A stretch of 57,665 bases of DNA, from positions 1-57,665 of the forward strand of contig JAKLFY010000043.1 in the NCBI GenBank assembly GCA_022710935.1, in the 5' to 3' direction. Origin of the DNA: Verrucomicrobiota bacterium (lineage in GTDB: Bacteria > Verrucomicrobiota > Verrucomicrobiia > Limisphaerales > J093). Shown here in pieces: positions 5,136 through 51,398 of this stretch. Under the pieces are notes generated by a model that did no database searches, was not told the origin of the DNA, and was given only the letters and a program-made list of their open reading frames with translations. How positions within the stretch are numbered: position 1 is the stretch's first letter; every line of letters begins with the position of its first letter. Both the position numbers and the translations under genes were made by a program.

Positions 5136-7502
5136 TCATTCAGGCGCTTTGAGCGCGCCAACAAGATCGAGGCGGTGGAGTTGGCGTAGGACGAAGATGG
5201 CGGAAAGTGTCGAAGCGACCGAGACAACGAGCACGGCGAACCCGAAATTGCCCATCGTCAGCACCACCGGCAGACGGACGGTCTCGGTGTTAATGGCCCT
5301 GACAATGCCGGCGGCAAAGCCGGAGCCGAGCAGCAGTCCGAACGGAACCGCAACCAGGGCGAGGATGACGAGCTCGGTCACAAGGACGCCGCCCACCTCG
5401 CGGCGGGAGAAGCCGATTACCCGCAGCGTGGCCAGTTCGCGGGCGCGTTCGGCGAGCGAGATTCGGACGTTGTTGTAGACCACGCCGAAGGCTACCACCA
5501 TGGCAAACGCCAGGTAAATCATCTGAAACGTGTTGATGCTCGCGGCCGTCGTTTGCCGGAAGTTGGCGCGCATCGAGTCCTTGATCGCCACCCAGTTGAC
5601 TCGCGGCGTTTCTTTCAAAGCGTGGAGAAACGCGGCGCGATGGCCGGGATCGACGCGGAAGGTCGCCCCGTTCATCACGTCGCCTTCGCCCAACATGCGA
5701 TTGAGGGCCGAACGTTCCATGTAGGCGGCCAGGCCCGCGAAGTCCTCGGCCAGTCGCACCAGGGGAACGGAGCGCACAGGCCGCCGTTCCTCGAGCACCT
5801 CGACGACGATCTGATCGCCAACCTTGGCGCCGAGAATCTGCGCCAGCTTCGCGGACAGCACCAGCCCCTGCGGTGGCAGGATGATGGTCTGGTAGTCGGG
5901 ATTGATGATGCGGTCGTGCAGGCCCTTCGACGGCAGGCCGCGCAGGACCAACTGCCGATGCCGGTGTCCGAAGCGAAGGCGGACGGCGACACTGCGAACG
6001 GGTTCGACGCTGACCGCTCCAGGCAACTGCCGCAGAGGATGCCGGGCGGCAAGGCTGGCAGGCTCGATCAGGCCGGCGCTCATGTCCTGGCGCTGGACGA
6101 CGTGCCATTGGTAATCGAGGACCTCGGCCACAGCGTCTCGAAAACAATTGGGCACAATGAGTATGCCGCTGGCCAAAGAGAGGCCCGCGCATGGAAACAG
6201 CGCCCGCATCGGACGACGCTCGAGATTGCGCATCGCGATGCGAAAGGTTGCGGATAGATGCTGTGCCATCCCGCCGCGCTCGATCCAGGCGGGGCGGTAC
6301 GAAGCGGGCGGTTGGGGGCGCATGGCCTCCGCGGGAGGCAGGCGTGCCGCGCGCCGCACGGCGCCAAACACGCCCGTCACCGCCGCCGCCGCGCTCACGA
6401 CCAACGCAGCCAGCAAAGCCGTGCGGTCCAGACGGAACGCCAGTTCGGGGAACCGGAAGAAGTTGTGGTAAAGTTCCACCAGCCAATGGCCCAGAAGAGC
6501 CCCTCCGATCGCGCCGGTCACCGTGCCGCCGGCAACGATCACGAGCGCGAACTTGAAATAGTGGGCGGCGACCTGCCGATTGGTGAAGCCGAAGGCCTTG
6601 AGAATCGCAATCTGCTCCCGCTGGAGATCGACCAGGCGCGAAAGGATGGCGTTGGTCATGAAAGCCGCGACCCCGAGAAAGACGATCGGAAAGGCGACCG
6701 CCATCGTGGCCAGCACCCGGATTTCGTCCAGGACACGGATATGCGACGGATGCTCGGAGCGGCCAAAGGCCCCCCGTCCGCCATAAGGTTTGAGCAGCCG
6801 ATCCAGTTCGGCAATGACAGCGCGTTCGGACGCGTCCGGTTCGAGAGCGAGGACCATGTAGTTGAAGGCGCCATCGAGGCTGAAGGCGGCCGCCAGATCG
6901 GCGTACGGGAGCCAGAAGCTGCCGTAGGCCCGGCTGTCGGGCAGAGGTGTGCCCGGCCGCGATTCGAAGATGAACTCGGGCGAGAGAACGATGCCGGCGA
7001 CCCGCAAGACCTCGCGTCGGCCATGGAGCACCATGATGATCGAGTCGCCCGGACGAATCCGGTTCGCACCGGCGAACGCCTCGCCGACAAGGACCTCGGC
7101 ATGCCGTCCCGGGCTCAGCCAGCGTCCGGCGCGCAGGAAGAGGCGGTTCAACTCAGGCTGGCCAAATGCCGGAAGCGAACGGACGGTGCCGCTGGCCGGT
7201 TCATCCAGACCGGCAATGTCGAGGGTGACCTGGACGGAGATGTCCGCCTGCGCGCGGGCGACACCCGGGATCCGGGCTGCCTGGTCGGCGACGGAATGCG
7301 GGGCCCGTTTGAGATGCGCGAACACCTGCGCGAAGCGGTGGTCCTGATAGTAATCGTCGCGCGCCGCTTCGAGCGACCGGATCAGGCTGCGCGCCATGAT
7401 CATCATCGCCAGCCCGCAGGCCATGACAAGCGCGACGGCCATGGCCTGGCCGCACAGCCGGTTCAGATCGCGGAACAGTTTGCGGTCAAGACAAGGCAGC
7501 AT
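5136..7502 (-). CDS. ABC transporter permease with two FtsX modules
   Basis: A 788-residue inner-membrane permease. It has an N-terminal membrane helix (about 20-40), a periplasmic MacB-PCD-like domain, a first FtsX block of three helices (about 275-390, with the coupling-helix region QREQIAILKAFGFTNRQV), then a second helix, a second periplasmic domain and a second FtsX block (about 665-780, with ERARELATLRVIGFSRREV). The duplicated layout is the long FtsX type, in which one chain supplies what two MacB-type subunits would. It starts 5 bases after the ATPase gene ends and stops 7 bases before the adaptor start, so the three are almost certainly co-transcribed. These systems move lipids, peptides or lipoproteins, and the substrate cannot be read from the sequence. 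Confidence 0.92.
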   Translation of the reverse strand: MLPCLDRKLFRDLNRLCGQAMAVALVMACGLAMMIMARSLIRSLEAARDDYYQDHRFAQVFAHLKRAPHSVADQAARIPGVARAQADISVQVTLDIAGLDEPASGTVRSLPAFGQPELNRLFLRAGRWLSPGRHAEVLVGEAFAGANRIRPGDSIIMVLHGRREVLRVAGIVLSPEFIFESRPGTPLPDSRAYGSFWLPYADLAAAFSLDGAFNYMVLALEPDASERAVIAELDRLLKPYGGRGAFGRSEHPSHIRVLDEIRVLATMAVAFPIVFLGVAAFMTNAILSRLVDLQREQIAILKAFGFTNRQVAAHYFKFALVIVAGGTVTGAIGGALLGHWLVELYHNFFRFPELAFRLDRTALLAALVVSAAAAVTGVFGAVRRAARLPPAEAMRPQPPASYRPAWIERGGMAQHLSATFRIAMRNLERRPMRALFPCAGLSLASGILIVPNCFRDAVAEVLDYQWHVVQRQDMSAGLIEPASLAARHPLRQLPGAVSVEPVRSVAVRLRFGHRHRQLVLRGLPSKGLHDRIINPDYQTIILPPQGLVLSAKLAQILGAKVGDQIVVEVLEERRPVRSVPLVRLAEDFAGLAAYMERSALNRMLGEGDVMNGATFRVDPGHRAAFLHALKETPRVNWVAIKDSMRANFRQTTAASINTFQMIYLAFAMVVAFGVVYNNVRISLAERARELATLRVIGFSRREVGGVLVTELVILALVAVPFGLLLGSGFAAGIVRAINTETVRLPVVLTMGNFGFAVLVVSVASTLSAIFVLRQLHRLDLVGALKAPE

Positions 7503-7506
7503 CCGA

Positions 7507-8277
7507 TCACCATTTCAGGCTGTTCACCGGGGCGCGGCTGGCGTTGCGCCGGATCCGCTGAACGCGCCCGTCCGACAGGAAGATCACCCGATCCGCCATG
7601 TCCGCCATGACGGCGTTGTGGGTGATGATGACGGTGAGGGTCCCCAGTTCGCGGTTGACGCGCGCGATCGCTTCGAGAACGACAATGCCGGTGCGCACAT
7701 CGAGGGCGCCGGTCGGCTCGTCGCACAACAGGACGGCAGGACGCTTGGCGATGGCGCGGGCAATCGCCACACGCTGTTGCTCGCCGCCCGAGAGCTGCGC
7801 AGGGAAATGGTCCAGACGCGCCCCGAGGTTGACCATTTCAAGGGCCGCCTCGGGCGGCATCGGATCGGTGGCGATCTCGGTGATGAGGGCGACGTTCTCG
7901 CGCGCCGTCAGGCTCGGGATCAAGTTGTAAAACTGGAAAATGAACCCCACGCATTCGCGGCGGAAACGCGTGAGTTGCTGCTCGTCCGCCGCCGTCAGGT
8001 CCGCGCCGCGATACTCGAGCGCGCCGGCCGTGGGCAGGTCAAGGCCGCCAAGATTGTTGAGCAGTGTCGTCTTCCCGCTGCCGGACGGCCCAAGCAGCAC
8101 CACCAACTCGCCTTCGAACAGGTCCAGATCGATCCCCGCCAGGGCACGCACCTCGGCGGGACCCGAGCCGTAGACCTTGGTCACCTCGCGGGCTCGATAG
8201 ACAAGTGCCGGGTCCGGCCCCGAGGGCGCTTGCGCCACTCGAGTCACCGCATCGGACACTGGAGCCGTGCCATCCAT
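7507..8277 (-). CDS. ABC transporter ATP-binding protein (LolD/MacB/DevA-like)
   Basis: The ATPase of the exporter, about 256 residues from the chosen start. Walker A GPSGSGKT is at about 63-70, the Q-loop at FQF (about 115), the signature LSGGEQQR at about 162-169, Walker B AVLLCDE at about 181-187, and the H-loop at THN. I chose the ATG at 8277 because a purine-rich GGAAGAGAGG lies directly upstream and the fold begins soon after. The frame stays open to 8418, so starts at 8319 or 8418 are possible. It is the first gene of the operon, and its promoter should lie in the interval it shares with the divergent gene at 8547. Confidence 0.93.
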
Positions 8278-8546
8278 CCTCTCTTCCGCTTGTTCGGATT
8301 GGTTGTGCCTGCCGATCATCAAACTCTGCGCTGCATCGGGCGGGTTGACGTCGCGCACCTTCCCGTTCCCGACGCCGTGCGTCGAGGCAAAACGCGCTCC
8401 CGCTGCCAGGCCCGCCAAGCGACTCGCTTTCTTTCAGCCAGGGACTCCCGTTCCTGTTTTGCGCGCTGGCGGCGCGGGCAGGGATGTGGTATGCAAGAGG
8501 CGTCTTGCCAAAGACACTGCTAGAAACAACGCCTGAGAATAACGCC

Positions 8547-10430
8547 ATGAACCGCTCCTCGACCTTTCCGCAATTGTGCGTGCTGCTGCTCGGGTTTGGC
8601 CCCGTGTTGTTCCAGCCGCGGGCCCAAGTCGAACAACTCGCCTACCGCGCCGTCCGATCCAGCGCGTTCGAGGTGCAGCCGACGGATGATCCTTCGAGCG
8701 TCCAGGGGCCTTTTCGCGTCCGTGGCAGGTTCTCGATGACTCCTCAGGTGTCGCCTTTGGACTGGGAGAACTACAGGATTTCGGACCTCCGACTCGAAGT
8801 GCTGATGGGCGCGGGCCACCCGGCCATCCTGCGGGGCGGCGGGACTTTCGGGAGGAGTGCCCGGTTCAACCGCATGCGCATGGACCTCGACGTGCGGTTT
8901 GGCGAGACCACCCTGCATCTGGCCAGCGGCGAGCTGCCGGCTGAACCGTGGACACCTGACATTGACATGGTCCTGAAAGGCAAGGCCGACGACGGGGCGA
9001 TGCCCGGCACGTATGTGCTGCGCCTGGCTGCCGTGCGTGAGCTGGCGCGCTGGCAGTATCGGCTGATCGACGGCAGTTCGTGGACGGACGATTGTGAGAT
9101 GTGCGGGCGGCCTACGATCCGGTGGCCTCTGCACGGTGGTTTCGATCTGGTCCTGGTCGAGGAACATCCCTTGTTCAACCGCTATCATCTCTTCGATGTC
9201 CGGTTCTTCAGCGGTACCGAGTATGAACTCAGCGGGGAAGGCGATTACCAGGTGGGCGGCGAGGTTGCCCTGCGCCAGGAACTGCGGCTCGATGTGGATG
9301 CGAAAGGGACGTTCGGCGGACCGCGCACGATGAGCCTGACCAACATGCCGGGACCGCCCACGCGCCTTTGGCCGATGTGGGCCGTCGATGTGCAGGAGGC
9401 TGAAAGCACGCCGATGTCGAAGCTGCTCCTCGAACTGCGGGCGGCCCCCGTGCGCAAGTTCTGGTTTTCGACGACGCATGGGATGACACCCGGCCTTCAA
9501 CCGGACACCCAACCCCGCATATCCGGCGGCGATGTCCTGGCCGACTCCGGCCGCCGGGTGAAGACAAACGCCCAGTTGATCTCCGCGCTGGGATGGGCGG
9601 AACCGAAGGAGGCGTTTTCGGTTGACGCCCTGACGATCGCTCCCGGGGGCGAGATCTGGTTCTCGTTCAGCGAGGCGCAGACGAGCCCGACGCTCGGGGC
9701 GATCGGCGATGGCGATCTGGTGTCGAGCCACGGGCGCATCGTCAGACGGAATGGCGACTTGATGGCGTCTTTCGGCCTGATGCCGCCCGTGCCGGATCTT
9801 GGCCTGGATGGTGTCCAGGTCATGGACGATGGCGAGATCCTGTTTTCCATCGTTCGCGAGTCCTTCTCGGAGCGTCTGGGCGTGACGCTGCGACCCGGCG
9901 ACATCCTCTCGAGTCGCGGGAACGTCACCCGCGCGGCCAAGGAGTTGCTGGCTGGCTTTGAGCCGGAAGATCAGGCCGCCGACCCCGGACTCGATGCGTT
10001 CTTTGTCTGGCCGAGCGGCGAGGTGTGGTTTTCGACCGAATCCGGGTTCACCAGCAAGACGATGGGGCCGATCATGGACGGCGCGTTGCTGAGCGACCAC
10101 GGTTATGTCGTCGCGCACAACCTCGATTTGGTCCAGCCCTTTCAACCTCTCGAAGACCTGGCCGATTTCGGCCTGGACGGTCTGTTCGTGGTGACGGACG
10201 TCGCGGCGCCGCCGAAACCGGCTCGGGTGCTGCTGAGCCCCGAGAACGGAGAAGGCGGCGAAGTCCGGCTGATATGGCCCGGGCAGGGGCGCGTGTTTCA
10301 GGTTGAGGCGACGCCCGCCGTGGGCGATCCGTTTGCCCCCGTCAGCCCGATCATTCCGGACCTCGAATGGACGGATTCATCCGGTTCAGGGTTGAAGCAG
10401 AGCTCCTATTATCGCCTCCGACAGTGGTGA
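8547..10430 (+). CDS. Secreted protein with four about 62-residue GEIWFS repeats
   Basis: A protein of about 627 residues that I do not recognise as a named family. The ATG at 8547 gives a signal peptide (LCVLLLGFGPVLFQPRAQ). The N-terminal half is beta-rich and contains a C-x-x-C (DCEMCG) near residue 190. From about residue 303 to 552 it carries four tandem repeats beginning at nucleotides 9453, 9648, 9831 and 10017 (spacing 65, 61, 62 residues). The pattern is GE(I/V)WFS, then LG.I.DGD(L/I)LSS.G.(I/V), then D.GLDG. Four such units suggest a small propeller or solenoid. The C-terminal piece (VRLIWPGQGRVFQVEATP to YYRLRQW) resembles the terminal domain of many verrucomicrobial secreted proteins. 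It diverges from the exporter operon. Confidence 0.8.
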   Translation: MNRSSTFPQLCVLLLGFGPVLFQPRAQVEQLAYRAVRSSAFEVQPTDDPSSVQGPFRVRGRFSMTPQVSPLDWENYRISDLRLEVLMGAGHPAILRGGGTFGRSARFNRMRMDLDVRFGETTLHLASGELPAEPWTPDIDMVLKGKADDGAMPGTYVLRLAAVRELARWQYRLIDGSSWTDDCEMCGRPTIRWPLHGGFDLVLVEEHPLFNRYHLFDVRFFSGTEYELSGEGDYQVGGEVALRQELRLDVDAKGTFGGPRTMSLTNMPGPPTRLWPMWAVDVQEAESTPMSKLLLELRAAPVRKFWFSTTHGMTPGLQPDTQPRISGGDVLADSGRRVKTNAQLISALGWAEPKEAFSVDALTIAPGGEIWFSFSEAQTSPTLGAIGDGDLVSSHGRIVRRNGDLMASFGLMPPVPDLGLDGVQVMDDGEILFSIVRESFSERLGVTLRPGDILSSRGNVTRAAKELLAGFEPEDQAADPGLDAFFVWPSGEVWFSTESGFTSKTMGPIMDGALLSDHGYVVAHNLDLVQPFQPLEDLADFGLDGLFVVTDVAAPPKPARVLLSPENGEGGEVRLIWPGQGRVFQVEATPAVGDPFAPVSPIIPDLEWTDSSGSGLKQSSYYRLRQW

Positions 10431-15518: not shown

Positions 15519-18500
15519 ATGCAACCGATCTCCACCCATGCGCTCGCGCTCGTGCTGGCTCTTTGGTCCGTCGGTCCGTCGGGGGCCGCGGGAGCTGAAC
15601 CGCTGTTGCCAACCGCCGAGACGCCCGCCCAGCGCGAGGCGCGTCTGTCCTGGTGGCGCGAGGGACGGTTCGGGCTCTTCATTCACTGGGGACCGTCGAG
15701 CCTCAGCGGCAAGGAGATCAGTTGGGCCCGCGTCGGGCACCCGCACGATCATCGCGGCCTCGAATCCGTCCCCGCCGACGAGTACGACGTCCTCTATAGG
15801 CGATTCGATCCGGTGCGATTCGATGCCGACGCCTGGATGCGGTTGGCGAAGGAAGCGGGCTGCAAGTACGTCGTTTTCATCGCCAAACACCACGACGGCT
15901 TCTCGATGTGGCCCACGAAGCTGCGTGCGGACTACAGCATTGCGGCGACGCCATTCCGGCGTGACATCTGCAAAGAGATTGCCGACGCCGCTCATCGGCA
16001 CGGTTTGAAGCTGGGGTGGTATTACTCGACGCGCGACTGGACGCATCCGGACTACCTGGTGGGTGACAACCGCGCCTACGACACGTTTCAGATGGGTCAG
16101 GTGCGCGAGTTGCTCACGGACTATGGGCGCGTGGATCTGATGTGGTTCGATCATGTGGCCGGCAATTGGCGCGACTACCGGTTCCAGGAGCTTTTCGAGA
16201 TGCTGTACCGGTTGCAGCCGGGTCTCCTGGTCAACAACCGCGCCGCCGCATTCATTCGCCCCACCGAGGACCAGCCCAGCCCGGAGTTGCGGCAACTGGT
16301 TCGCGGCGACTTCGACACGCCCGAACAGCGGATTGGGGCCTTTCAGAACGATCGCCCCTGGGAATCCTGCGTGACCATCACCGAGTGCGCCGATGGCGGC
16401 GGCTGGTCCTATCGTCCGGACGGCCGCACCCGCGGCTTTGCCGAGTGCCTGCGGATGCTGGTGAACTGTGCGGCGGGGGACGGCAATCTGTTGCTGAACG
16501 TCGGTCCGCTCCCAACGGGTGAGATCGCGGCGGACCAGCAGGGTGTCTTGCGGCAAATAGGCCAATGGCTGGTGCGCTACGGCGAGAGCGTTTACGGGAC
16601 GCGGGGCGGACCGTTCCGCAACGGCGCTTGGGGCGGCGCGACGTATCGCGGCCAGACGGTTTATCTGCACGTATTCCGGTGGGCCGGCGACCGGCTGCGA
16701 TTGCCTCCGCTTCGGGCCAAGGTGTTGCGCGTCGCAGCGCTGACCGGCGGTTCACCCGCGGTGGACCAGTCGTCGGCTGGAGTGACCGTGGTGCTGCCGA
16801 CGCATCAGCAAGACGCGACGAACACGGTCGTCACGCTCGAACTCGATGGCCCGGCGTCCGCCGAGTTCCGGGACGGCAAACCGCTCGAGGTGCCTGAACA
16901 GGTCACGATCGAAGTCGATTCCCCGCGTGATTACCAGGTGTTCCAAAGGCAATCGGCCGCCCGGGGGCTGGTTCGCATGGTGGGCAAAGTCGGCGGAAAT
17001 GTCGAGCGAGTCGAGGTTCAACTCGATGGCGACTGGCAGGAACTCGCCTTTGACTCCAAGACGGGGACGTTCAAAACCGAGTTCAGCGCGCCAACAGGCG
17101 GCTGGTACGTTTGCCGTGTCCGGGCTCGGGCTGCGGGCGCGATCGTGGCCTCGATGGAGATTCCTCATGTCGGTGTGGGCGAGGTATTCGTGGTGTCGGG
17201 GCAATCCAATTCGGCCAATCACGGCGAGGAGCGGCAGTCTCTGCAGAGCGACCGTGTGACGGCCTTTGACGGGACGGTTTGGCGGCCGGCTCACGATCCG
17301 CAGCCCGGCGCCAGCGGGGACGGGGGGAGTTTCATACCGCCGTTTGGCGAGGCGATGGCGGCCCGGTTCAACGTGCCGGTGGGTGTCGTTTCCTGCGGGA
17401 TCGGTGCGACAAGCGTCCGAGAGTGGTTGCCGAGAGGGGTCACCTTTCGGCATCCGCCGACTTTGGTGGGGCGTGTGCGCCAATTGCCCAACGGCGATTG
17501 GGAGAGCCAGGGCGCCGCGTTCGAGATGATGATGGCCCGCATGAGGGCACTTGGGCCGCACGGTTTTCGGGCCGTGCTGTGGCATCAGGGCGAGTCCGAT
17601 GCCAACCAACCCGATCCAGCGCGCGCCCTGCCGCGTGACTTGTATCGGAGTTGCCTCGAGCAACTGATCCGGGATTCCCGGAGCGCGATCGGGTGGGAGG
17701 CGCCCTGGTTCGTTGCCCAAGTCAGTTATCATGGTCCAGGCGACGAGTTCTCGCCCGAGATTCGGGCGGCCCAGAAGTCACTCTGGGATGATGGGATTGC
17801 GCTGGAAGGACCGGACACCGACGCGCTGAAGGGCAGCCTGCGCGACAGCGGGGGGCGGGGGGTGCATTTCAGCGGAACGGGTCTGCGGGAGCACGCGGCG
17901 CGCTGGGTCGAGAAGGTCGCGCCGTGGCTTGCGACCCGGCTGGGGACTCGAGGTCTCGCGGAGGCGTCCGCCGAGATCGGCCCCTGGACTGAGACATGGG
18001 CGCGGGGCCCCGGCTATCCCGATCGCGATGCGAGCCTGGACGCGCTGCCGGGTTTTCGGGACCCGCCGCCGGGATATGGCGAGGTGCCGTTTTGGTGGTG
18101 GACGGGCGATCCGCTGGATGTGGACCGATTGACCTGGCATCTCGATCAACTGCATGAGAAAGGGATCAGCGGCGTGCAGGTCAATTATGCGCACGAGGAT
18201 ACGCCGGGCTGGCCGACGTACGCTGCGGAGCCGCCGATCTTCAGCGACGCCTGGTGGCGCGTTTGGGGGCAGGTGGCCGAGGCCTGCCGTCAACGCGGCA
18301 TGGGCATCGGGCTGAGCACCTACACGCTCGATTGGCCCAGCGCGGACAACCTGTTTCGCCGCCTCTTCTACTCGAGACCCGAGCTGAATGCGCTGAAGTT
18401 GGAGCCGCTCCCACGGCAGCGCTTCACAAGCGGTCAAGCGGTCCAAGTTGCGGTGCCGTCCGATCTGGTCGCGGCGCGCGCCTATCCGGTCAAGGATGGC

Positions 18501-21500
18501 CAGGTCCAGCGTGGCGGGGTGGATTTGAGGGCGCGCATCCGCGACGGGCGCCTCGAGTGGACGGCGGACGAAGGCGAATGGGAGCTGTGGCTGGTCCGGG
18601 CCGAGCGGCAAGCCAACACCCTCAATCCGCTCTTGACGGGCATCGGGGACACGATCATCCGGGACTTCTACCAGCGGTTCCAGGAGGCCACGCCCAACCG
18701 GTCGGCGGAAGGACTCAACTACTTTTTCAACGACGAGTTGCACATCGGCGCCGGGGCGCGGGTCTGGACCATCGACTTCGCGGACGAGTTTCAGCGGCGC
18801 AAGGGGTACAGCCTGTTCGAGGTGTTGCCGGCTCTTTGGGCCGATCTCGGACCGGTGACCCCCAAAGTCCGGATCGATTACGCCGACGTGCGGATGGCTC
18901 TGATGGAGGAACGCTATTTCCAGCCGATCTTTCAATGGCACGCATCGCGCGGACTGATCTTCGCCTGTGATTCCGGCGGACGCGGGCTGCAACCGGACGA
19001 GTTCGGTGATTACTTCCGCGCGACGCGCTGGTATAGCGCTCCAGGCCATGACACGCCCGGCGGGCACGCAGACCTCATCAAGGGCAAGGTCTCATCCTCG
19101 ATCGCGAGTCTGTACCGGCGACCGCGCGTGTGGCTCGAGGGCTATCACAGCCTCGGGTGGGGGGCGACGCCCGAGCGCCTGATGTTCGCCACGCGCGAGA
19201 ACTATCTCTATGGTTGCACACTGCTGAATCTCCACGGTCTGTACTACACCACGCATGGCTCGTTTTGGGAATGGGCGCCGCCGTGTCACCACTTCCGGAT
19301 GCCCTACTGGGAGCACATGGGGGTCTTCCTCAAATACTTCGAGCGGCTTTCGTACCTGCTGAGCCAGGGCACGTTCGTCGCCGACGTCGCAGTGCTCTAC
19401 CCGGTCGCGCCATTCGAGGCCGGACTGGATGGCGGAAAGGCGACTCAGATCGCTTTCGACACAGGCCGCGCGTTGATGGCTGCTGGCGTCAACTTCGAGT
19501 TCCTGGATGCCGACTCGTTGGCGCGGGCCACGGTTGGCGGCGCGCGGCTCGCGACCGCGGATTCCTCGTATCGCGCACTGGTCTTCCCCGCCATGGAAGC
19601 GGTGCGCTGGTCGTCGCTGCAAAAGGCTGCTGCATTCGCCCAGTCCGGCGGCCTGGTCGTGAGCGTTGGTGCGCTTCCGCTTGCCAGCGACCGCGCCGGC
19701 CGGGAGGACCCGGACCTGGACGCCCTCGTGGCAGCGGCTTTCCCGAAGGAAAGGCGTCTCGAAAAGCCGGGCGACGTGCCGGCGAGAGTCCTTGACGCCT
19801 TCGTTCCCGATACACGCGCGGATTCACCCGTCCGCTCGCTTCATCGCAAGGTCGGTTCGCGCGAGGTGTACCTGGTGATGGACGCGCCGAAACACGCGGT
19901 CGTCGAGTTTCGCGCCCGGGGACAGGCCGAGTGGTGGGATCCGTGGACCGGTGCGACCCACCCGTTGCGCGTTCTGGGCGAGACGGCTACGGGCGCGCGG
20001 ATCGAAATGCCGCTCGAAGCCTATGAAGCCCAGGTCATCGTCTTCAGGCCGGGCTTCGCGCACACGAATCCACCCCCTCGCATGGAGCGCACCGTGCAGC
20101 GGCGGGCGCTTGACGGCGACTGGGAGTTCGCGCTCAAGCCGACGATGGACAATCGTTACGGGGATTTCCGCCTGCCGGCCACCGACCGGATCATCGGGCC
20201 CGAAGCGCGCGTTTTCCGCCACGCCATCGAGAGCAGTCCGGCGTCCGCCTGGCACGAACCGGGATTTGATGACCGCGGCTGGCAACGGGTCACGCATGAC
20301 TTCGGCCCGCAATTCTGGGTGTTGGGACCGATTCCGCCTGCCACGGATTTTCAGGCTCTCGACCAGGCCTTGGGGCAGACTGCGCGCCTCGATCCGTCCG
20401 AGTTGCCGATCCCCGGGGGTGAGAGCCTCCGGTGGCGTCCGTATGAGATCTCCTGGCGCCAGGGACTCGGGGGGGATCCCGGCCACCAGGGCTGGCACGG
20501 GCTCAAAGAGAATGTCACCGACCACTTCCTCTGTCTGGGGAAACGCGGCGAGGCTTTCAACGAGTCCAAGTATGAACCGGAGATCGAGGGAGGCCGGTAC
20601 TACCTCTGGACCTGCGTGACGGTGGACCAACCCACCCGCGCCCGCCTTGTGGCGAGCGTGCCTCGAGAAGGCGTCAAGCCTCACGCCTCCGCAGTCCTTA
20701 CTCCGGCGGCCATCTACGTGAACGGACAGCGACTGGATGACTGGCAGCAACCGCTTTCCCTGCGGACCGGCCCCAATCCGATCCTCATCCGCTATGACCA
20801 CGCTGGGCGTGGCTACCTGGTGGTGAAACGCGATGGAGGGGGCGCGGCGCCCGCTGCGCGCACCCCGTTGTCCATGACCTGGTTCGACGATCCGGCCCTG
20901 ATGCGATTCGACATTCATGCGGGGGCCGCGCCGGCCGAGTGGTTCCGCTTTGTCGCCCCGCCCGGATTGCGCGCGATCAAGGTCGTCGCCCATGGCAAGC
21001 TCGACGTCTGGGCCGATGGCGAGCCGATGCGCGCCTCAGGCACTGGACGCTTCGAGGTGTCCGAGGCCCTGGCGCGCGCCGCCGTGGTCGCGCTGCGCGT
21101 CCGGTCGGAGCGCGGATTCACTGGCGCCGCAGTCTTTCCCGAGCCGGTGCGATTGGAATGTGGGCCGGGGGTGTTGGCACTGGGCGACTGGTCCAAGAGC
21201 GGCGCGCTCGAGTGTTACTCGGGAGGCGCCATCTACGCCACAACGCTGGCGCTCGGTCCTGAAGAGGCCAAAGGCGAGGTCACGCTGGACCTTGGGAAAG
21301 TGGTCGCCACGGCCGAGGTGCGCGTGAACGGGCAACTGGCCGGCATTCGGGTGGCGCCGCCTTGGCGCGTGGAAATCACCCCGCACGTCAAACCGGGCGA
21401 GAACCGGATCGAGGTGCTGGTGTTCAACACGCTCGCCAACCATTATTCCACGATCCCGACCCGCTACCGCGGGGAACTGACGTCCGGGTTGGTGGGACCC

Positions 21501-21524
21501 GTTGCAATCGAGGTGGCGTTGTAG
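15519..21524 (+). CDS. Trimodular fucosidase (GH29) - SGNH acetylesterase - rhamnosidase-like (GH106) enzyme
   Basis: One uninterrupted 2001-residue secreted protein with signal peptide [18 protein letters not shown]. Module 1 (about 30-460) is GH29: [19 protein letters not shown] (123-131), and LMWFDH with the expected nucleophile Asp211. Module 2 (about 465-810) is a sialate-O-acetylesterase-like SGNH hydrolase: a beta domain, VFVVSGQSN with Ser560 (556-564), [10 protein letters not shown] (687-696), and His783 in GVHFSGTG. The usual Asp of the D-x-x-H box is replaced by Arg in RGVH. Module 3 (about 840-2001) resembles GH106: [12 protein letters not shown] (856-867), FNDELHIG with Glu1073, [11 protein letters not shown] with Glu1207, then beta-sandwich domains. 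It would remove fucose, acetyl and rhamnose decorations. The frame is clean and all three sites are largely intact, so it looks functional. Confidence 0.85.
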
Positions 21525-21594: not shown

Positions 21595-21963
21595 TCAGGA
21601 GGCGTTGGGCTGTCCTGCCGCCTCGTTGTGCAGACCGGCGCGATACCCGATCACCCGCACTTTTTCGAGCGTGACCAGGCCGCCGCCCATCATGCCATCG
21701 AGCACCGGCAGGAACTCATTGATCTTCTCCTCGGCGTCCACAATCTCGATGACGAGGGGCAGGTCGATCGAGAGGCGCAGGATCTTCGCCGTATGCAATC
21801 GACTCGATTTGCCGAAGCCCATCGGCCCGCGCAAAACCGTCGCGCCGGCCAGATGCAGTTCGCGCGCCTTGAGCACAATGGCTTCGTAGAGCGGTTGATG
21901 ATGCCAGCGATCGCTTTCGCCGATGAAGATGCGCAGCAGGACGGCGTCGTGTGGCACTTGCAT
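21595..21963 (-). CDS. DUF190 family protein, partner of CrcB
   Basis: A 122-residue cytoplasmic protein of the DUF190 family (PF02641), recognisable by LLRIFIGESDRWHHQPLYEA, then VLRGPMGFGKSS and DLPLVIEIVDAEEKI. DUF190 proteins have a ferredoxin-like/PII-like fold and are often encoded next to crcB fluoride channels. The ATG at 21963 lies one base after the crcB stop, implying translational coupling. A further open frame to 22053 would lie inside crcB. Its role is unproven, and a regulatory or sensor function for the channel is plausible. Confidence 0.9.
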   Translation of the reverse strand: MQVPHDAVLLRIFIGESDRWHHQPLYEAIVLKARELHLAGATVLRGPMGFGKSSRLHTAKILRLSIDLPLVIEIVDAEEKINEFLPVLDGMMGGGLVTLEKVRVIGYRAGLHNEAAGQPNAS

Positions 21964-21964
21964 G

Positions 21965-22360
21965 TCAGTTGCCTTTGGATGAATTGAGGCCGGCCGCCAG
22001 CACATGGCCAAGCCAGACGGCCGCCATGCAGAGCACGAATGAGAGTGTCGCATTCGCGCCCGCCCTGAACCACTCGCCGTCGCGGGCCAGGTTGAGCGTT
22101 TGCAGACTCAGCGAGGAAAACGTCGTGTAGCCGCCGCACACCCCGATCATCACGAACTCGCGGGCCGAGGGCGCCACCAGCCAGCGGCCATCGGTGTCGG
22201 TGAGCGTGGCGAAGAAGCCGATGATCAGCGAACCGACGACGTTCACCGCCAGTGTGCCCCAGGGGAACGTCTCGCCAAAGTGCCGCGCGACATAGCCGGA
22301 GCTTGCGAACCGTGCAATGCTGCCCAACCCGCCTCCGACAAAGATCCAGAAGTAGCTCAT
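21965..22360 (-). CDS. crcB: Fluoride channel CrcB/Fluc
   Basis: A 131-residue four-helix membrane protein of the Fluc family, which exports fluoride as an antiparallel dimer. Diagnostic segments are GGGLGSIARF near the start, WGTLAVNVVGSLIIGF with the conserved Asn in helix 2, and GVCGGYTTFSSLS in the broken helix 3 with the central Na+ site and phenylalanine-box residues. It lies 15 bases after the broken FGE hybrid gene and is coupled to DUF190 downstream. No convincing fluoride riboswitch precedes it: a GCTGATAACTCCTG string lies upstream but lacks the 5' half of that aptamer. Confidence 0.95.
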   Translation of the reverse strand: MSYFWIFVGGGLGSIARFASSGYVARHFGETFPWGTLAVNVVGSLIIGFFATLTDTDGRWLVAPSAREFVMIGVCGGYTTFSSLSLQTLNLARDGEWFRAGANATLSFVLCMAAVWLGHVLAAGLNSSKGN

Positions 22361-22375
22361 GACAATTCCACCGAC

Positions 22376-23574
22376 TCAAGGACGCTCGACAGGAGTTATC
22401 AGCTCTGAATCGCTCATCCGCTGGCGCCAGTCGGCCAGCGAGGATTCGACAAAGTAGACGCGGTTGAGGCCCTCGCCGGTCTCGCCGGGATTCAGGGGGC
22501 CGAAACCGCTGGCGCTGTGGATACAGCCGTATTCCATGTTCTGGAACAGGAACAGGGCCGGACGGGAAACGGTGGCGACCAGCCGGCGGCCATCGCGCGA
22601 CGTCACCGCGATCCAGCCGCCCAACACCAGGTCGGGCGTGGCACGGAAGTTCGCGACGAAGGGGATGGCGGCGGCTTTTGGGGCGCCTGCGACGCTGTAG
22701 AGCTGGATCGTGGGGCGGGGACCGAATACGCGAGGGAGTTCGATCAATCGCCGGAGTTCGCCCGCGTGCTCGACCCAGGTGCGTCCGCACTCGTGGTCGC
22801 GGACCTCGGGCATCGAGCCGCATTGGACGCAGTTGAAGGCGAGGCTCTGCGCCCAGCGGCGGTCGCTTTCGTTGGTGAGCCGGTAGCGGGTTTCGATGAA
22901 GTTGAGGTGCGGCGTCACAGTCATTTCATAGCGCGATTCGCCGGGACGCGATCCGCGGGAAACCCATGCGCCGTCGGGGCCGCGTTCCCACGCCGGTTTG
23001 AGCCCGCCATGCAGGTGATGAGGAACCGAGGACGGGGTTTCGACCGGGTCACCGCCAGAGTCGAAGTGGCAGGCTTGCGGATCGAAGCGGTCGCCCCACG
23101 GGTAGCGGAGGCCGTTTTCGCCGCGGGCCGCTTTCTCCCATTCCGCCTCGGTGGGGAGTCGTTTACCTGCCCACCGGGCGAAGGCGGTGGCGTCTGCGTG
23201 GTCGACCATGGTCACGGGATGATCGAGCAGGCGTTCGGGAGGGCGGTGGGCGCCCCAGTTGAGGGGGGGTGGTGGCCGGTGGCGGCCACGAACCGGGCGT
23301 AGGCGGCATTGGTGACGGGGAAGCGGTCGATCTGAAAGGCGGGCAGGTCGACCCTGCGCTGTGGCATTTCACCGGCCAGCCAGCTCGGATGGTGGCTGTG
23401 CTCGCGGGCGAGGGCAGAGGCTTCCGCTTCGGTGGTACCCATGACGAACAGACCGCCGGGGATGCGGATCATCCCCGTTGGCACGGTTTCGGAAGATGCG
23501 CCGGGCAGGACGACCAGCGCCCCGGAACCGGCGAAGGCAGCCTTGAGCCAGCGACGGCGGGAACAGGTGTGCAT
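22376..23574 (-). pseudogene. FGE/SUMF1-like protein, frameshifted and joined to an unrelated C-terminal half
   Basis: The first frame (from ATG 23574) has a Tat-like signal (SRRRWLKAAFAGSGALVVLP), then the start of a formylglycine-generating-enzyme domain: [36 protein letters not shown]. It runs into a 7-base G run (23263-23269 on the plus strand) and goes out of frame. The next frame resumes the family sequence ([20 protein letters not shown], then [15 protein letters not shown] and [19 protein letters not shown]). One extra base in the run would restore a single frame. The domain then stops before the NVWEW and GGSW core and continues as an unrelated segment ([40 protein letters not shown]). 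So there is a frameshift plus a fusion that removed the catalytic part. It should not mature sulfatases even if the frame were restored. Confidence 0.8.
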
Positions 23575-23712
23575 GCGGTCGGAGTCTGCGCGGTCGGTCG
23601 TTCTTTGCCAACTCAATTGGCATGCCGGACCGGACCGGCGTCCGGACTTCAAGTCTTCGAGTGCTTGTTCTCGGTAGTTTCGTGAACAGCCACTCGATGT
23701 GGCGCCAGAGCC

Positions 23713-44461: not shown

Positions 44462-45753
44462 ATGACCGGCCTGGATATCGACACCCGCAGTGACATCTAT
44501 AGCCTGGGCGTGCTGCTCTACGAGCTCCTGACGGGCGACACGCCGTTCGACGCCAAAGACCTCCTGCAACGGGGCTTGGACGAGATGCGTCGAACGGTCC
44601 GGAAAGTGGAACCGCCGCGTCCAAGCGCCCGTTTCGAGACCCTTCCGCCGGCCCGACGCACCACGGTGGCGGCAGCGCGGCGCATGGACGCTCTGAAACT
44701 TCGGTCCGAGCTGCGCGGCGACCTGGATTGGATCGTGATGAAGTGCCTCGAGAAGGACCGCACGCGCCGCTTCGAAACCGCCCACGCGCTGGCTCTGGAC
44801 CTGACGCGGTTCCTGCGCCACGAGCCGGTCACCGCCCGACCGCCCACCGCACTTTATCGTCTGCGGAAGTTGGCACGAAGAAACCAGGTTTCGTTTGCCG
44901 CGGGGGTGATCGCCCTTCTATCGCTGGTCGTCGGTTTGGGGATCAGCACCTGGGCTTTGGTGAGAGAGCGGGTGGCGCGCAAAGAGGCCGAACGACTACG
45001 CGCTGAAGAACGAATCCAACGCGTTCGAGCCGAGGCGGGCGAATCGGGCGCCCGGCAATTCGCCTACGCCTCGGACATGAATCTCGTGCAACAGGCCCTG
45101 GGTGCGAACAACCTCGGACGCGCGCGCGAGTTTCTTCAACGCAATCACCCGCCGCCCGGTCAGGTCGATCTACGGCGCTGGCAGTGGCGACACCTCTGGC
45201 AGTGCTCGCGCAGCTCTGCGCAATTCACTCTATGCGAGCAGCCGATGTCGGTTCTGATCGTTGCCTATGCGCAAGCCGAGACTCGCGTGGCGACGCGTGA
45301 CAGTTCGGGCGCGGTCAAGTTGTGGGACCTCCTCACCCGGCGTCCAGTGCTTGAAGCGCGCAGCTTCGGCCATGGCCGAGCGCTCGCGGTGTCCGCCGAC
45401 GGTCGCACCTTGGCCTGGGACAACCGCGATTCCCAGCACCAGCCGGGCACCGCCGCCGGGTCACGGGCGTGGCGTTCACGCCCGACGGAGGGACCTTGGC
45501 CACGGCGAGCGAAGATGCCCTGGTGAAACTCTGGGACCCTGCAACGCTGCGGGAAGTGGCGACGCTTCGCGGTCATCTCCTGGGTGTCCATTCGGTACAA
45601 GTCTCTCCGGACGGCCGGCGCCTGGCCTCGGGCAGCCACGCGAAAGAGGCGGTGAAGCTCTGGGATTTGGCGACGTGGCAGGAAGTCACCACTTTGGAGG
45701 GACGTGGATCGTTCTTCTACCGCACGATGTTCTCGCCCGACAACGATTCATGA
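44462..45753 (+). pseudogene. Ser/Thr protein kinase - WD40 gene relic
   Basis: This begins abruptly mid-kinase with MTGLDIDTRSDIYSLGVLLY, that is subdomain IX onward. It continues through DLDWIVMKCLEKDRTRRFET, a transmembrane helix (FAAGVIALLSLVVGLGISTW), a coiled coil of K/E/R-A repeats, and the WD40 start (VKLWDLLTRRPVLEA). The ATP-binding lobe and catalytic HRD/DFG loops are absent. Near 45425-45455 the frame changes. The next frame carries VAFTPDGGTLATASEDALVK, then VKLWDPATLREVATLRGH, ending prematurely at FSPDNDS (stop at 45753). Intact relatives carry up to a dozen WD40 units. It cannot be an active kinase. The continuous 43934-45526 frame, partly alpha-galactosidase-like and partly kinase, is an accident of two deletions. 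Confidence 0.78.
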
Positions 45754-45800
45754 TCCGCGCTTCCCCAGTTACACCCAATCTGACAAAACTCACTTGTCCT

Positions 45801-48800
45801 ATGAACACTCTCCCAAGTCCTCCGACCCGAGTGCCTCTCGCCCTTGTCCTGTTTTTGCTGGTGGTCGGCACGTTCCGGCCTTTCTTGGCGCAGGGCGCGC
45901 TGACCAATCTATGGGAAAGCCACTTGGGCAGCGATGTCTTCGCCGCGCCGGCGCTGGCGCCCAACGGCAGGATCTACGCCAGCGCGACCGTGGGTGAGGG
46001 GGCGAAGCTCCTGGCGATCAACCCCGACGGGACAACCAGTTGGAGCTTCCGAGTCGGGGGCGTCATCTACGCCGCGCCAGCCGTCGGCCCCGATTCGCGG
46101 GTTTATGTCGGAGATTACACCGGCACCTTTTTCGCCGTGAGTTCGGACGGCACCGAGGCCTGGCGGTTCAGTGCCGGCGGTCGGATTCTCTCCTCGGCAG
46201 CCGTCACTTCGGAGGGCCGCGTTTTCTTTGGCGCGACGGACGGGCGGCTCTACGCGCTGGCGGCTGGCGGCACGCTCGAGTGGGCTTTCGCCACGGGCGG
46301 CGAGATCGGGTCGTCACCGGCGGTCGCTGGCGATGGCACCATCGTGTTTGGCTCGGCGGACACGTATGTGTACGGCCTGCGCCCGGACGGCTCCCAGAAA
46401 TGGCGGTTCGCAGCGGGGGCCGAAGTCTGGTCGTCCCCTGCCATCGGTGCGGATGGGACGATTTACATCGGGTCGGACAACGGCAAGCTGCACGCATTAA
46501 CGCCGGCGGGTACGCTGCGCTGGGTCGACACCGCAGCTGATCCTTTTGGTTACCTGTCACCGGTCATTGGGAAGGACGGTGTCATCTACGCCAACTCAGG
46601 CGGCCGTCTCACGGCACTCGATCCGGCTGGCGCCAGACTCTGGGAAGTTGTCGATGGCGGTTTTCTCGGGACACCCGCCGCCGCCGCGGATGGGACAGTC
46701 TTCATTCGCGGGCCTGGTTATCGGCTGCGGTCTTTCGGCTCGGGTGGGCAGGTCGTCGAGGACCTCGGGTTCGGATGGGGGCACAGCGGTGTCCTGCTCG
46801 GGGGGAACGGACGCCTTGTTGCCACGAGCCAGGATGGCTGGCTGGTCTGCTACACGGGAGCGCCTGATCCTGCTTCGAGTTCGTGGCCGCAGTTCCGGCG
46901 CGATGCGCGGCGCAGCGGCGTGGCGGATCCTGCGCCCACCGTGAACCTGGTGCTGCCAGCCCAGGACATGAGCTTCCGGGCGGGTCAACCGGTGCCGCTG
47001 TGGGCGGACGTTGCCCATTTCGGCCCCGATGCCGCCGTCGAGTTTCTTGTCGACGGCGAGGTGGTGGCGACGGTGACGGCCCCGTTCCGGGCGACCTGGG
47101 AGCCGACGACGGCCGGCGTCCGGTCGGTGGTCGCTCGCGCCTTTGACAGCGAGGGCACTGCCGCGGTGTCCGGCGCGGTCTCGGTGACGATCTTGCCCGC
47201 GGGGGCGAACGCGTTTCCCGAGGTGTGGATCGAGTCGCCGGCGAATGGCGCGGCGCTGGGCGCCGATTCCTCGATTGAGGTTCGGGCCGTCGCTCACGAT
47301 CGGGACGGCGTCGTGACGCGTCTCGAGTTTTTCGCCGACGGCGTTGCCTTTGCTGAAACCGAATTCCCCAACAACACCGCAAGCTGGCAAGGCTTTGGCC
47401 TTGGTCTGCACGAACTCGTCGTGGTCGCGGTGGACAACGCCGGCGCGCGCAGCACGTCAGCGGTCCACCGGATCACCGTCTTGGCGCGTCCCTGGAGCCG
47501 GCTGTTTACCGAGGGTGTGCGGTCGCCGCAGGCTGCGGGCAGCGATGGCACGGTCTATGTGGTTTCAGCCGCGGGCGCGCTGCAGGCACTGAGCGCCACA
47601 GGCCAGACCAACTGGGTGTTCGTCACGGACGAAGGGAACAGCAGCGCCGCGCCCGCCGTTGCCACCGACGGCACCATCTACTTCGCGACGTATGCGGGCA
47701 AGCTCCACGCCGTCCGTGCGGATGGGGTCCCGTTGTGGGCCTTTACCGCCGGCCAACGCATCTGGTCGTCGCCGGCGATTGGCCGGGACGGGACCATCTA
47801 CTTTGGATGCGAGAATCGCCGGCTCTACGCGGTGCGACCGGATGGGGTCGAGAAATGGGCATTCGAGGCAGAGTTTTACATCAGTTCGTCGCCGGCCGTG
47901 GCGGACAACGGCACGGTCTATTTCGGCAGCGATGGTGGCACCTTCTACGCCGTCGGTCCGGACGGCACGCTCGCGTGGCAGGTCGCCGTGCCGCCCGGCG
48001 TAAATTCGTCTCCCGCACTGGGCGCGGACGGCACGGTTTACTTCGGCGCGGCCAACAGCGGTGATGTCTACGCGCTGCTTCCGGACGGCTCGATCAAGTG
48101 GACCGCGACCCTGCCCGAACCCATCGGCGACGCGTCGCCCGTGTTGGCCCAAGACGGGACAGTCTACCTCGCGAGCGGAACCCGGCTCTACGCGCTGCGG
48201 CCTGAAGATGGCCAGGTGCGATGGTCGTTCGGCGCGACGGGGGAGATCTTCGCGACGCCGGTGGTTGCGGCGGACGGCACGGTGCTGTTCGGAGACATCG
48301 GGCGGCGTTTCCACGCGCTTGCGCCTGACGGCACGCCGCGTTGGGAGTTGGCACTCGAGGGCAAGGTCACCCAACCCGCGTTGCTCACAGCCGGCGGCCT
48401 GCTCGTGTTCCCCACCGACGACAACCAACTGCACGCGGTGACGATCAGTCTTCCGCCTGCACTCAGCGCCTGGCCCCAGTTCCACCGGCATCCTGAGCGG
48501 ACCGGGCTTGGAATGGCGCGGCCGGTTGTGCGTCTGGTGCAGCCCGAGACGGACGTCAACATTGCGCTGGGCGATACGGTCTCGCTCGTGGCCGAAGCCA
48601 GCAGCCCAAACGGCGCGCTGACGCGCGTGGAGTTCCTGGAAGGGACGCATGTGATTGCGACCGTGGCCGCGGGACCGCCGTTTGGGGTCGATTGGGTGCC
48701 TGCCCGGACTGGCCGGCTCCGATTGACGGCGCGCGCGACGGACGTCGCGGGCGCAAGTGCGGTGTCCGCGGCGAACACCATCTGGGTGTTCGATCCGGCG

Positions 48801-51398
48801 GCGCCGCCCGTCATCAGCGAACACCCGACGAGTGTCACGGTGACCAACGGCATGACGGTCACCCTGAGCGTCTGCGCGCACGGCGCACCGCCACTCGAGA
48901 TGCAGTGGCTCAAAGACGGACGACCGTTAATGGGCGCGACGGCGACTGTGCTCGAGTTGCCCGACGCGACGCCGGCTGACTCGGGCCACTACCAGGCGCG
49001 CGTTCAGAATGCCCGTGGCACAACCACCAGCGCGGCGGCGTTGGTCACCGTGATCCAGCCGCCATCCGTGCGCTGGGTCGCGCGCGGGTCGAGCCCGGCG
49101 CGGCACGCACCGGCAATCGGGCGCGGCGGATTGCTGTACTACGGCGGTCAGACCGCCTGGTTGACGTGTATGGACCCGCGCGCGGTCTTCGAGTGGGATT
49201 GCCAGGCGGGCGGAGAGATTTGGTCGGCGGTGACGCTGGCGGAGGACGGCACAATCTACTTCGGGGCGCGCGACCGGAATCTGTACGCGTTGAATCCCGA
49301 CGGCGGGCTGCGCTGGCGGTTCGCCACGCCATACGTGGTGGACGCCTCACCGGCCCTCGGGAGCGACGGCACGATCTACTGCGCGTCGGCTGACGGCGCA
49401 GTGTTCGCCGTCAGTCCGGAAGGCTCTCAACGCTGGCGGTTCGACGCGGTGGGTGAGGTGTACAGTTCGCCGTGCGTCGCGGCGGACGGGACGATCTACG
49501 TCATCAGTTTCGGCCTCCTCATCCCAGGAACGGATACCTATAGCGGACGTTTGTACGCGTTGCGGCCGGACGGCAGGGTGGACTGGGAATACCTGGTCAA
49601 CGAACGGGTGTCGGGTTCGCCGGCGGTCGGCGCCGACGGCACGGTTTACTTCGGCACGCCTGGGGGCCGGTTTCTGGCGGTGACCCCGGATGGAACGTTC
49701 GGATGGGAGATCGAAACGGGCGGGGCCTTTTTCGAGAACGAGCCGGTGATTGGCCCCGAGGGCGTCGTGTTGATCGGCCAGGAGTGGGCGGAACCCGGAA
49801 CCGGAACCAAGCGCGGACGCTTTCTGGCGATTAACCCGGACGGCACGGTGCGTTGGTCTTACGCCACCGGCGCGCCGATCTACTCGACGGCGGCCGCCAC
49901 CGCCGACGGCACGGTCTACTTCACCGACGAGTCAAGGACGCTCTATGGGCTCAACGCCAACGGCACGTTGCGCTTTACGTACGCGGCGGATTTCGCTCGA
50001 GGGGCGTCGCCGGCATTGGGATACGACGGCACCATTTACGTGGCTGACGGGCTTCTCGCCCTGCACGCGCTGCTGGGCCATAGCCCCCCCGCGCAATCTT
50101 CATGGCCAATGGCCCGGCGCGATTTGCGTCACACCGCGAATGCAGGCACACCGCCCGATGCCGAGACGTGGTTCTATCCCTTCAACTCGAATGCGTTTGA
50201 CGACGAAGTCCGCACCATTGCGTTGGACGGCGCCAACGTCTATGTCGGCGGTGCGTTCAAGTTGGCGGGTGGCTTGCCGTCGCGGTTTGTCGCGCGGTGG
50301 GATGGCGCAGCTTGGTCGGCGCTGGGGGCAGGATTCGACGCGCCGGTGAGCACGCTGACGATGTTTCGGGGCCAACTCCACGCCGGCGGCCATTTCTCGC
50401 GGGCGGACGGTCAACCGGTGGGTTTCCTGGCACGCTGGAACGGCTTGGCGTGGGAATCCCTTGGTAGCGGGGTCAACGATCTGGTCGAGGTCTTGTTGGC
50501 CGTCGGCGATGACCTGTATGTCGCCGGGAGCTTCAGCACGGCGGGAGGTGTGACGGCCCGCAACATCGCGCGCTGGGATGGCACGGCCTGGAGCGCGCTC
50601 GGGGAGGGCGTCGGGGCGGCGGTGCTGGCGCTGGCGAGCGACGGCACACGCCTGTTCGTGGGCGGCGCCAACAACCTTAGCCACGGTGAGCTTCAACTCG
50701 GGATGGTCGCGCAGTGGGACGGCCAGCAGTGGCGGCGGGTCGGCGTCACGGGGCCGCAGGGAACGGTCCGCGCCTTGGCATGGCATCGAGGCCACCTCTA
50801 CGCGGCCGGGGACTTCGCGTTGGCCGATAACCAGCCCGCACGCGGCATCGCCATGTTTGACGGCACCGCCTGGACTGAAGTCGCCGGCGGCTTGTCCGAT
50901 CCGTTGTCGCCCTATGGTTACGCATTGGCCTCCGACGGACAAAGCCTCTGGGTGGGGGGAACGTTCACCCGTGCAGGCACGGTGGCCGCCAGCCGGATCG
51001 CCCGCTGGGACGGCGCCCAGTGGCATCCGCTCGGCCTGGGGGTGGACCGACGCAGCGGGACCAGTGCGACGGTGGTGCGGGCCTTGGCGGCGCACGATGG
51101 CGAGGTGTTGGTCGGCGGGACGTTTCTCGCGGCGGACGGCAATCGCACGAACCGCCAGTTCGCGCGCTGGCGTCCGGAAGGGTGGTCCTCTCTCGGGCCG
51201 GCTCTCGGTTTCGTGGACGGTCGGTTCAGCTTGGCCCTGCAGAGCGATCGCGGCCTGACGTATGGGATCGAAGCGTCGGATGACCTTGTCACCTGGACGC
51301 GCCTGGTGACTTTCACCAACCTGACTCAGGCCGTCCGGTTCTTAGATGAACAGAGCGCAAGCCGTTCCCACCGTTTCTACCGCGCCGTGTCGCCGTAG
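45801..51398 (+). CDS. Very large secreted multi-propeller protein (PQQ-like, Ig-like, ARWDG repeats)
   Basis: About 1865 residues from ATG 45801, which gives signal peptide LALVLFLLVVGTFRPFLAQG. The frame extends back to 45261, but that part is antisense to nothing and overlaps the kinase relic. Order: PQQ-like propeller 1 (about 35-370, repeats A.DGT(I/V)(Y/V)FGS...LYAL.PDG...W.F); two Ig-like domains (379-465, 475-562); propeller 2 (565-895); two Ig-like domains (907-995, 1002-1083, the second with MQWLKDGRPL and DSGHYQARVQN); propeller 3 (1086-1430); then seven repeats of (I/V)ARWDG..W..LG (about 1453-1790), which would make a seven-bladed propeller 4; and a C-terminal domain ending SHRFYRAVSP. 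No catalytic site is visible. It is a surface or matrix protein of unknown role. Confidence 0.85.
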   Translation: MNTLPSPPTRVPLALVLFLLVVGTFRPFLAQGALTNLWESHLGSDVFAAPALAPNGRIYASATVGEGAKLLAINPDGTTSWSFRVGGVIYAAPAVGPDSRVYVGDYTGTFFAVSSDGTEAWRFSAGGRILSSAAVTSEGRVFFGATDGRLYALAAGGTLEWAFATGGEIGSSPAVAGDGTIVFGSADTYVYGLRPDGSQKWRFAAGAEVWSSPAIGADGTIYIGSDNGKLHALTPAGTLRWVDTAADPFGYLSPVIGKDGVIYANSGGRLTALDPAGARLWEVVDGGFLGTPAAAADGTVFIRGPGYRLRSFGSGGQVVEDLGFGWGHSGVLLGGNGRLVATSQDGWLVCYTGAPDPASSSWPQFRRDARRSGVADPAPTVNLVLPAQDMSFRAGQPVPLWADVAHFGPDAAVEFLVDGEVVATVTAPFRATWEPTTAGVRSVVARAFDSEGTAAVSGAVSVTILPAGANAFPEVWIESPANGAALGADSSIEVRAVAHDRDGVVTRLEFFADGVAFAETEFPNNTASWQGFGLGLHELVVVAVDNAGARSTSAVHRITVLARPWSRLFTEGVRSPQAAGSDGTVYVVSAAGALQALSATGQTNWVFVTDEGNSSAAPAVATDGTIYFATYAGKLHAVRADGVPLWAFTAGQRIWSSPAIGRDGTIYFGCENRRLYAVRPDGVEKWAFEAEFYISSSPAVADNGTVYFGSDGGTFYAVGPDGTLAWQVAVPPGVNSSPALGADGTVYFGAANSGDVYALLPDGSIKWTATLPEPIGDASPVLAQDGTVYLASGTRLYALRPEDGQVRWSFGATGEIFATPVVAADGTVLFGDIGRRFHALAPDGTPRWELALEGKVTQPALLTAGGLLVFPTDDNQLHAVTISLPPALSAWPQFHRHPERTGLGMARPVVRLVQPETDVNIALGDTVSLVAEASSPNGALTRVEFLEGTHVIATVAAGPPFGVDWVPARTGRLRLTARATDVAGASAVSAANTIWVFDPAAPPVISEHPTSVTVTNGMTVTLSVCAHGAPPLEMQWLKDGRPLMGATATVLELPDATPADSGHYQARVQNARGTTTSAAALVTVIQPPSVRWVARGSSPARHAPAIGRGGLLYYGGQTAWLTCMDPRAVFEWDCQAGGEIWSAVTLAEDGTIYFGARDRNLYALNPDGGLRWRFATPYVVDASPALGSDGTIYCASADGAVFAVSPEGSQRWRFDAVGEVYSSPCVAADGTIYVISFGLLIPGTDTYSGRLYALRPDGRVDWEYLVNERVSGSPAVGADGTVYFGTPGGRFLAVTPDGTFGWEIETGGAFFENEPVIGPEGVVLIGQEWAEPGTGTKRGRFLAINPDGTVRWSYATGAPIYSTAAATADGTVYFTDESRTLYGLNANGTLRFTYAADFARGASPALGYDGTIYVADGLLALHALLGHSPPAQSSWPMARRDLRHTANAGTPPDAETWFYPFNSNAFDDEVRTIALDGANVYVGGAFKLAGGLPSRFVARWDGAAWSALGAGFDAPVSTLTMFRGQLHAGGHFSRADGQPVGFLARWNGLAWESLGSGVNDLVEVLLAVGDDLYVAGSFSTAGGVTARNIARWDGTAWSALGEGVGAAVLALASDGTRLFVGGANNLSHGELQLGMVAQWDGQQWRRVGVTGPQGTVRALAWHRGHLYAAGDFALADNQPARGIAMFDGTAWTEVAGGLSDPLSPYGYALASDGQSLWVGGTFTRAGTVAASRIARWDGAQWHPLGLGVDRRSGTSATVVRALAAHDGEVLVGGTFLAADGNRTNRQFARWRPEGWSSLGPALGFVDGRFSLALQSDRGLTYGIEASDDLVTWTRLVTFTNLTQAVRFLDEQSASRSHRFYRAVSP

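Follow-up and report, generated by a model that had tools for sequence, protein, structure and literature searches.

An open reading frame in the window (the whole stretch of DNA analysed, 57,665 nucleotides) appears to join an alpha-L-fucosidase, an esterase and a rhamnosidase in one chain. Is this a real gene fusion, are its three parts likely to be active, and would they act on a single glycan?

A single frame with three enzyme modules

The frame at 15519–21524 on the plus strand translates into 2001 residues with zero internal stops, and the first-pass annotation was right to read it as a single polypeptide. Every motif quoted there (LMWFDH, VFVVSGQSN, LWHQGESD, FNDELHIG and WLEGYH) is present in the translation, and the proposed signal peptide corresponds to an N-terminus that resembles one by sequence. 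The proposed families, GH29, SASA and GH106, were recovered in a domain search in which all Pfam matches pass the curated cut-offs: PF01120 at residues 37–356 (6.2e-71, profile positions 22–345 of 345), PF03629 at residues 555–755 (2.9e-18) and PF17132 at residues 1001–1483 (9e-28). The NCBIfam model NF045579, a C-terminal rhamnosidase-type jelly roll, matches residues 1895–1975. The features are as follows.

15519–21524, plus strand: whole open frame, predicted secreted GH29-SASA-GH106 fusion, 2001 aa (translation and Pfam)
15519–15596, plus strand: putative signal peptide, about residues 1–26, ending in AGA before EP (read from the sequence)
15597–16892, plus strand: GH29 module, predicted alpha-L-fucosidase, to residue 458 (Pfam, profile match, conservation)
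16902–17180, plus strand: beta-rich domain, about residues 462–554, N-terminal to the SASA core in relatives (relatives; local pLDDT of the model mostly 62–87)
17181–17948, plus strand: SASA/SGNH esterase core, residues 555–810 (Pfam, alignment of relatives)
17949–17999, plus strand: 17-residue linker, residues 811–827, at the signal-peptide position of separate GH106 proteins (alignment of relatives)
18000–20018, plus strand: GH106-type catalytic region, residues 828–1500 (Pfam, profile, conservation, fold comparison)
20019–21521, plus strand: C-terminal beta-sandwich domains, with a GH2-type jelly roll at residues 1895–1975 (Pfam, NF045579, fold comparison)

Module boundaries and reality of the join

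The closest relatives of each module, 72–78% identical, set the edges of the modules; most of them are complete, independent proteins, each with a signal peptide of its own. Separate GH29 relatives have their C-terminal end at residue 458–460 of the frame (nt about 16892). SASA relatives cover residues 462–810 (nt 16902–17948), and most of the short ones stop just past 'KVAPWLE'. Separate GH106 relatives begin at residue 828–832 (nt about 18000), directly after their own signal peptide. The junctions predicted earlier, at about 16900 and 18000, match these edges. Every domain of the fusion protein is whole and has the same start and end as the separate proteins, and there are no inner signal peptides. 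The first-pass annotation had also considered, as a refutation, that close relatives have the three families only as separate genes and that this assembly contains a gap; it has none there.

Base composition was compared along the frame. GC is 0.659, 0.658 and 0.663 across the GH29, SASA and GH106 modules, third-position GC is high throughout, and the tetranucleotide distance is within background. With a composition this even, nothing suggests a chimeric join, and an artefact visible in composition was rejected, as none of the three measures shows a break.

The source genome is a metagenome bin of 7.5 Mb (95.7% complete, 4.3% contamination) in 259 contigs, the full fusion is seen in a single genome only, and about 1 kb downstream there is an FGE gene that is damaged and broken in frame, but a wrong joining of two or three adjacent genes during assembly or binning is highly improbable, given in-frame joins with lost inner signal peptides and intact domain ends, a composition that is even by all measures, and the position of the frame within a 57.7 kb contig. 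With its modules complete and inner signal peptides lost, the frame looks like a real gene fusion.

Catalytic residues of the three modules

In profile comparison the GH29 module matches 6gn6 (4e-66). The nucleophile candidate, D211 in LMWFDH, is present in all 86 aligned sequences, and E269 and E282 are likewise invariant in this alignment. The module is probably an exo-alpha-L-fucosidase, as predicted from its family.

In the esterase module, S563 in GQSN and H783 in VHFS, near the C-terminus, are conserved in the alignment of relatives, and the WHQGESD motif occupies residues 688–694. The DxxH position is R780, and this position is non-acidic in relatives too. A non-acidic residue here would be consistent with a Ser-His dyad, which has been described in related sialic acid esterases (PMC12313940). 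In the core (residues 555–810) the alignment leaves no space for a big beta-sandwich insert such as that in CE20, a family which also has members without this ancillary insert (PMC12313940). Solved sialic acid esterases and CE20 gave weak matches to the module. Its structure model, with a mean pLDDT of 49.9 (local values in the beta domain mostly 62–87), was kept out of the fold search. The central module is probably a carbohydrate O-acetylesterase of the SASA/SGNH type.

The GH106 part matches 6q2f (8.7e-32) and 5mwk (1e-29) by profile. Its structure model, of middling quality (pLDDT 69.5), retrieved solved GH106 members first in Foldseek, the VIA comparison gave Z 18.9 over 706 residues (rmsd 6.4), and its top full-length structural matches are the two solved GH106 rhamnosidases. 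E1207 in WLEGYH aligns with the general base E593 of BT0986 and is invariant (55 of 55). The position of the BT0986 general acid, E461, is occupied by H1075 and is variable across the clade. In the adjoining motif D1072-E1073-L1074, Asp and Glu are each found in 51 of 52 ungapped sequences. As the acid Glu at the E461 position is absent, the sequence is not assigned to the BT0986 type. In the Ram106B enzymes Asp-Glu replaces D458-S459 of BT0986 while the base is kept, and these enzymes hydrolyse pNP-rhamnoside (PMC6828813). Compared by this published signature, the GH106 module resembles the Ram106B subgroup in the retained base, the Asp-Glu pair and the lack of conservation at the BT0986 acid position; the Ram106B enzymes differ in being separate proteins of thermophiles (PMC6828813). 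The earlier GH106 assignment stands by profile and fold, but with the Asp-Glu signature of Ram106B in place of the BT0986 acid. Rhamnosidase activity of the module is likely.

One of the modules, most readily the GH106-type part, might have become non-catalytic and serve for binding, as H1075 at the acid position and the esterase lacking an acidic residue in DxxH could suggest. We regard this as quite unlikely, since F-x-D-E-L and E1207 are almost invariant throughout the clade of separate GH106 enzymes, Ram106B rhamnosidases with the same Asp-Glu change are active (PMC6828813), and Ser-His dyads have been reported in related sialic acid esterases (PMC12313940).

Closest relatives and origin of the fusion

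In the trees, the GH29 module is sister to a separate protein of Kiritimatiellae (L181, on the same contig as L011) with support 1.0. The GH106 module groups with separate proteins of its own family (G013, G010 and G004) and with L001, L002 and L187 (support 0.99). The SASA module lies among separate or otherwise fused esterases and is weakly resolved. The separate GH106 proteins (L001, L002, L210/G013, L187/G251 and L211/G004) are the same full-length GH106-type protein, with 74–78% identity in the catalytic part and the same motifs, but they stand alone at about 1200 aa, have their own signal peptide and carry neither GH29 nor esterase. The Kiritimatiellae locus (L181, 4273–13078, plus strand) contains four GH29 genes within 9 kb, and one of these shares 76% identity with the GH29 module of the fusion.

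A metagenome-assembled genome (MAG) of Pirellulales (L017) contains a GH29 gene, 73% identical to the window module with an internal gap, followed after 17 nt by a second gene for a signal peptide and an esterase beta domain; the contig ends ahead of the esterase core, and a linkage to GH106 is not visible there. The order, GH29 followed by a SASA-type gene, is that of the window, but there are two unfused genes, spaced by 17 nt, and the second has its own signal peptide. This arrangement looks like a state before fusion.

SASA and GH29 are also found in one secreted chain in a Bacteroidia MAG (L019) and in a genome of the window's taxonomic order (L178/G269:C5). There the domain order is reversed (SASA-GH29), identity to the window modules is 48–55%, and GH106 is missing. 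The reverse fusions look independent of the window fusion because they fall outside its groups in the trees; in the combined GH29-SASA alignment the L019 esterase row aligned poorly (18%).

Distribution of the architecture and mobility of the esterase

No second GH29-SASA-GH106 protein was found in about 700 Verrucomicrobiota genomes (own genus, and the available family, order and phylum samples), nor was a second full fusion found among the best 80 of 589 confirmed genome-contig loci. A characterised GH29-esterase-GH106 protein was likewise not found in the open-access literature, the part covered by our search. The earlier statement that no characterised protein with this three-enzyme order is known agrees with these results. 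The reverse SASA-GH29 fusion occurs in one of the about 700 genomes.

The esterase is found in other company as well. In genomes of the window's order, SASA is joined to S9-type hydrolases, on either side (L115, L116, L173, L174, L175), to GH18 (SASA-GH18, L126), to a melibiase (Melibiase-SASA, L177) and to a LamG-like tail (L113). Some of these long fused frames could contain upstream non-coding sequence; the named domains share one open frame. There are also many short stand-alone copies of the esterase. The earlier view of each family as normally forming a protein by itself is too strong, for the esterase is often fused (L019, L178, L177, L126, L115, L116, L173–L175).

The fusion combines known parts in a way that is genuinely new, though not as a new kind of enzyme; it has been seen once so far and belongs to the known class of multicatalytic CAZymes. 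CE15-GH8 (PMC8417218) and fused acetyl-feruloyl esterases (PMC7110780) are reported examples of this class, in which a single chain likewise unites an esterase with further catalytic domains for a decorated polysaccharide, but they belong to other families and act on other substrates.

Genomic context

The first-pass annotation had referred to the usual setting of these families in polysaccharide-use loci. This does not hold for the fusion gene, which lies outside any such locus; upstream is a DsbH/YyaL-type gene and downstream crcB-DUF190. The latter pair, a crcB fluoride-channel gene and then DUF190 (21598–22375, minus strand), lies immediately after the fusion gene and is transcribed towards it. 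It is followed by an FGE-type sulfatase-modifying-factor gene (22376–23712, minus strand), split over two frames close to a run of C at about 23261; only profile positions 3–142 of 255 are matched before the frame enters an unrelated domain. Either the gene is damaged or the assembly has an error at this place. Further away, a 2045-residue frame (45261–51398, plus strand) carries PQQ-type beta-propeller repeats and Ig domains, its true start probably lying well inside, and a GH123-type protein with a C-terminal 3-keto-disaccharide hydrolase domain (DUF1080) is encoded at 51608–55699 (minus strand), its GTG start probably overextended upstream.

Among 28 neighbourhoods of related GH106 genes, only three contained GH29 or SASA, one of them as a weak distant GH29. 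A pairing of GH106 with GH29 or SASA as a general rule was dropped on this count. L-rhamnose isomerase is present in the source genome; a fucose isomerase was not found there above the cut-off.

Two loci among the relatives hold several of these families. Around the reverse fusion of L178, one strand carries a string of genes for GH106, a transglutaminase-like protein, DUF1080, an unknown protein, a malectin-like protein and SASA-GH29. The string in L007 is unknown-GH29, GH95, GH106; its first gene (5613–9359, plus strand) joins GH29 to an N-terminal region of ~800 residues without Pfam match, beside GH95 and GH106.

Proposed function

We consider it probable that a real gene fusion has produced a single exported chain of three complete, probably active units, an exo-alpha-L-fucosidase (GH29), an O-acetylesterase (SASA/SGNH) and an exo-alpha-L-rhamnosidase-type enzyme (GH106), which would act on one glycan. 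The target may be an acetylated glycan bearing fucose and rhamnose, with the three units working on the same side chains or on adjacent ones; candidates are exopolysaccharides of algae or cyanobacteria and pectic side chains. The role of the esterase would be to clear acetyl groups that stand in the way of the two exo-glycosidases. The fusion would keep the three activities in a set ratio and close together, and would require a single export step. This order of action is modelled on xyloglucan degradation, where deacetylation is a key step opening the glycan to downstream hydrolases (PMC8245568). Fucosidases and rhamnosidases are reported to be abundant in Verrucomicrobiota, where PF03629 proteins also occur in one of the GH29 loci (PMC8857213).

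From the three families we infer a shared substrate and synergy. The recurrent pairing of GH29 and esterase, the L178 and L007 loci, the reported locus with GH29 and PF03629 and the rhamnose isomerase in the genome argue for one substrate, while the lack of a polysaccharide locus, the weak co-localisation and the lack of a fucose isomerase above the cut-off argue against it. Only tentatively do we propose the full scheme, a three-step debranching in a single chain in which deacetylation by the central module would give the exo-glycosidases on either side of it access to fucosyl and rhamnosyl side chains of one glycan, an arrangement that fusion would have fixed in a lineage where the esterase is repeatedly shuffled.

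Alternatively, the fusion is real but its activities serve different substrates, the esterase being a mobile general-purpose module whose joining aids export or stability and not coordinated debranching. The same esterase family is found on one side or the other of S9-type hydrolases, GH18, melibiase and a LamG-like domain, which would agree with this, as would neighbourhoods of relatives that do not usually hold all three families and the position of the gene apart from a polysaccharide locus. We nevertheless think it unlikely, as four separate lineages have GH29 and the esterase fused or side by side, with both orders represented, L178 has GH106 and SASA-GH29 on one strand, and L007 strings GH29, GH95 and GH106 together.

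The fusion points to three activities that probably share a single, poorly known glycan as their target, and a single recombinant protein would allow a substrate to be sought. That the esterase module is mobile has wider reach than the fusion itself and may be of more use. An acetylesterase of Verrucomicrobiota joined to many different hydrolases suggests that acetylation is a common obstacle for the exo-glycosidases of this phylum.
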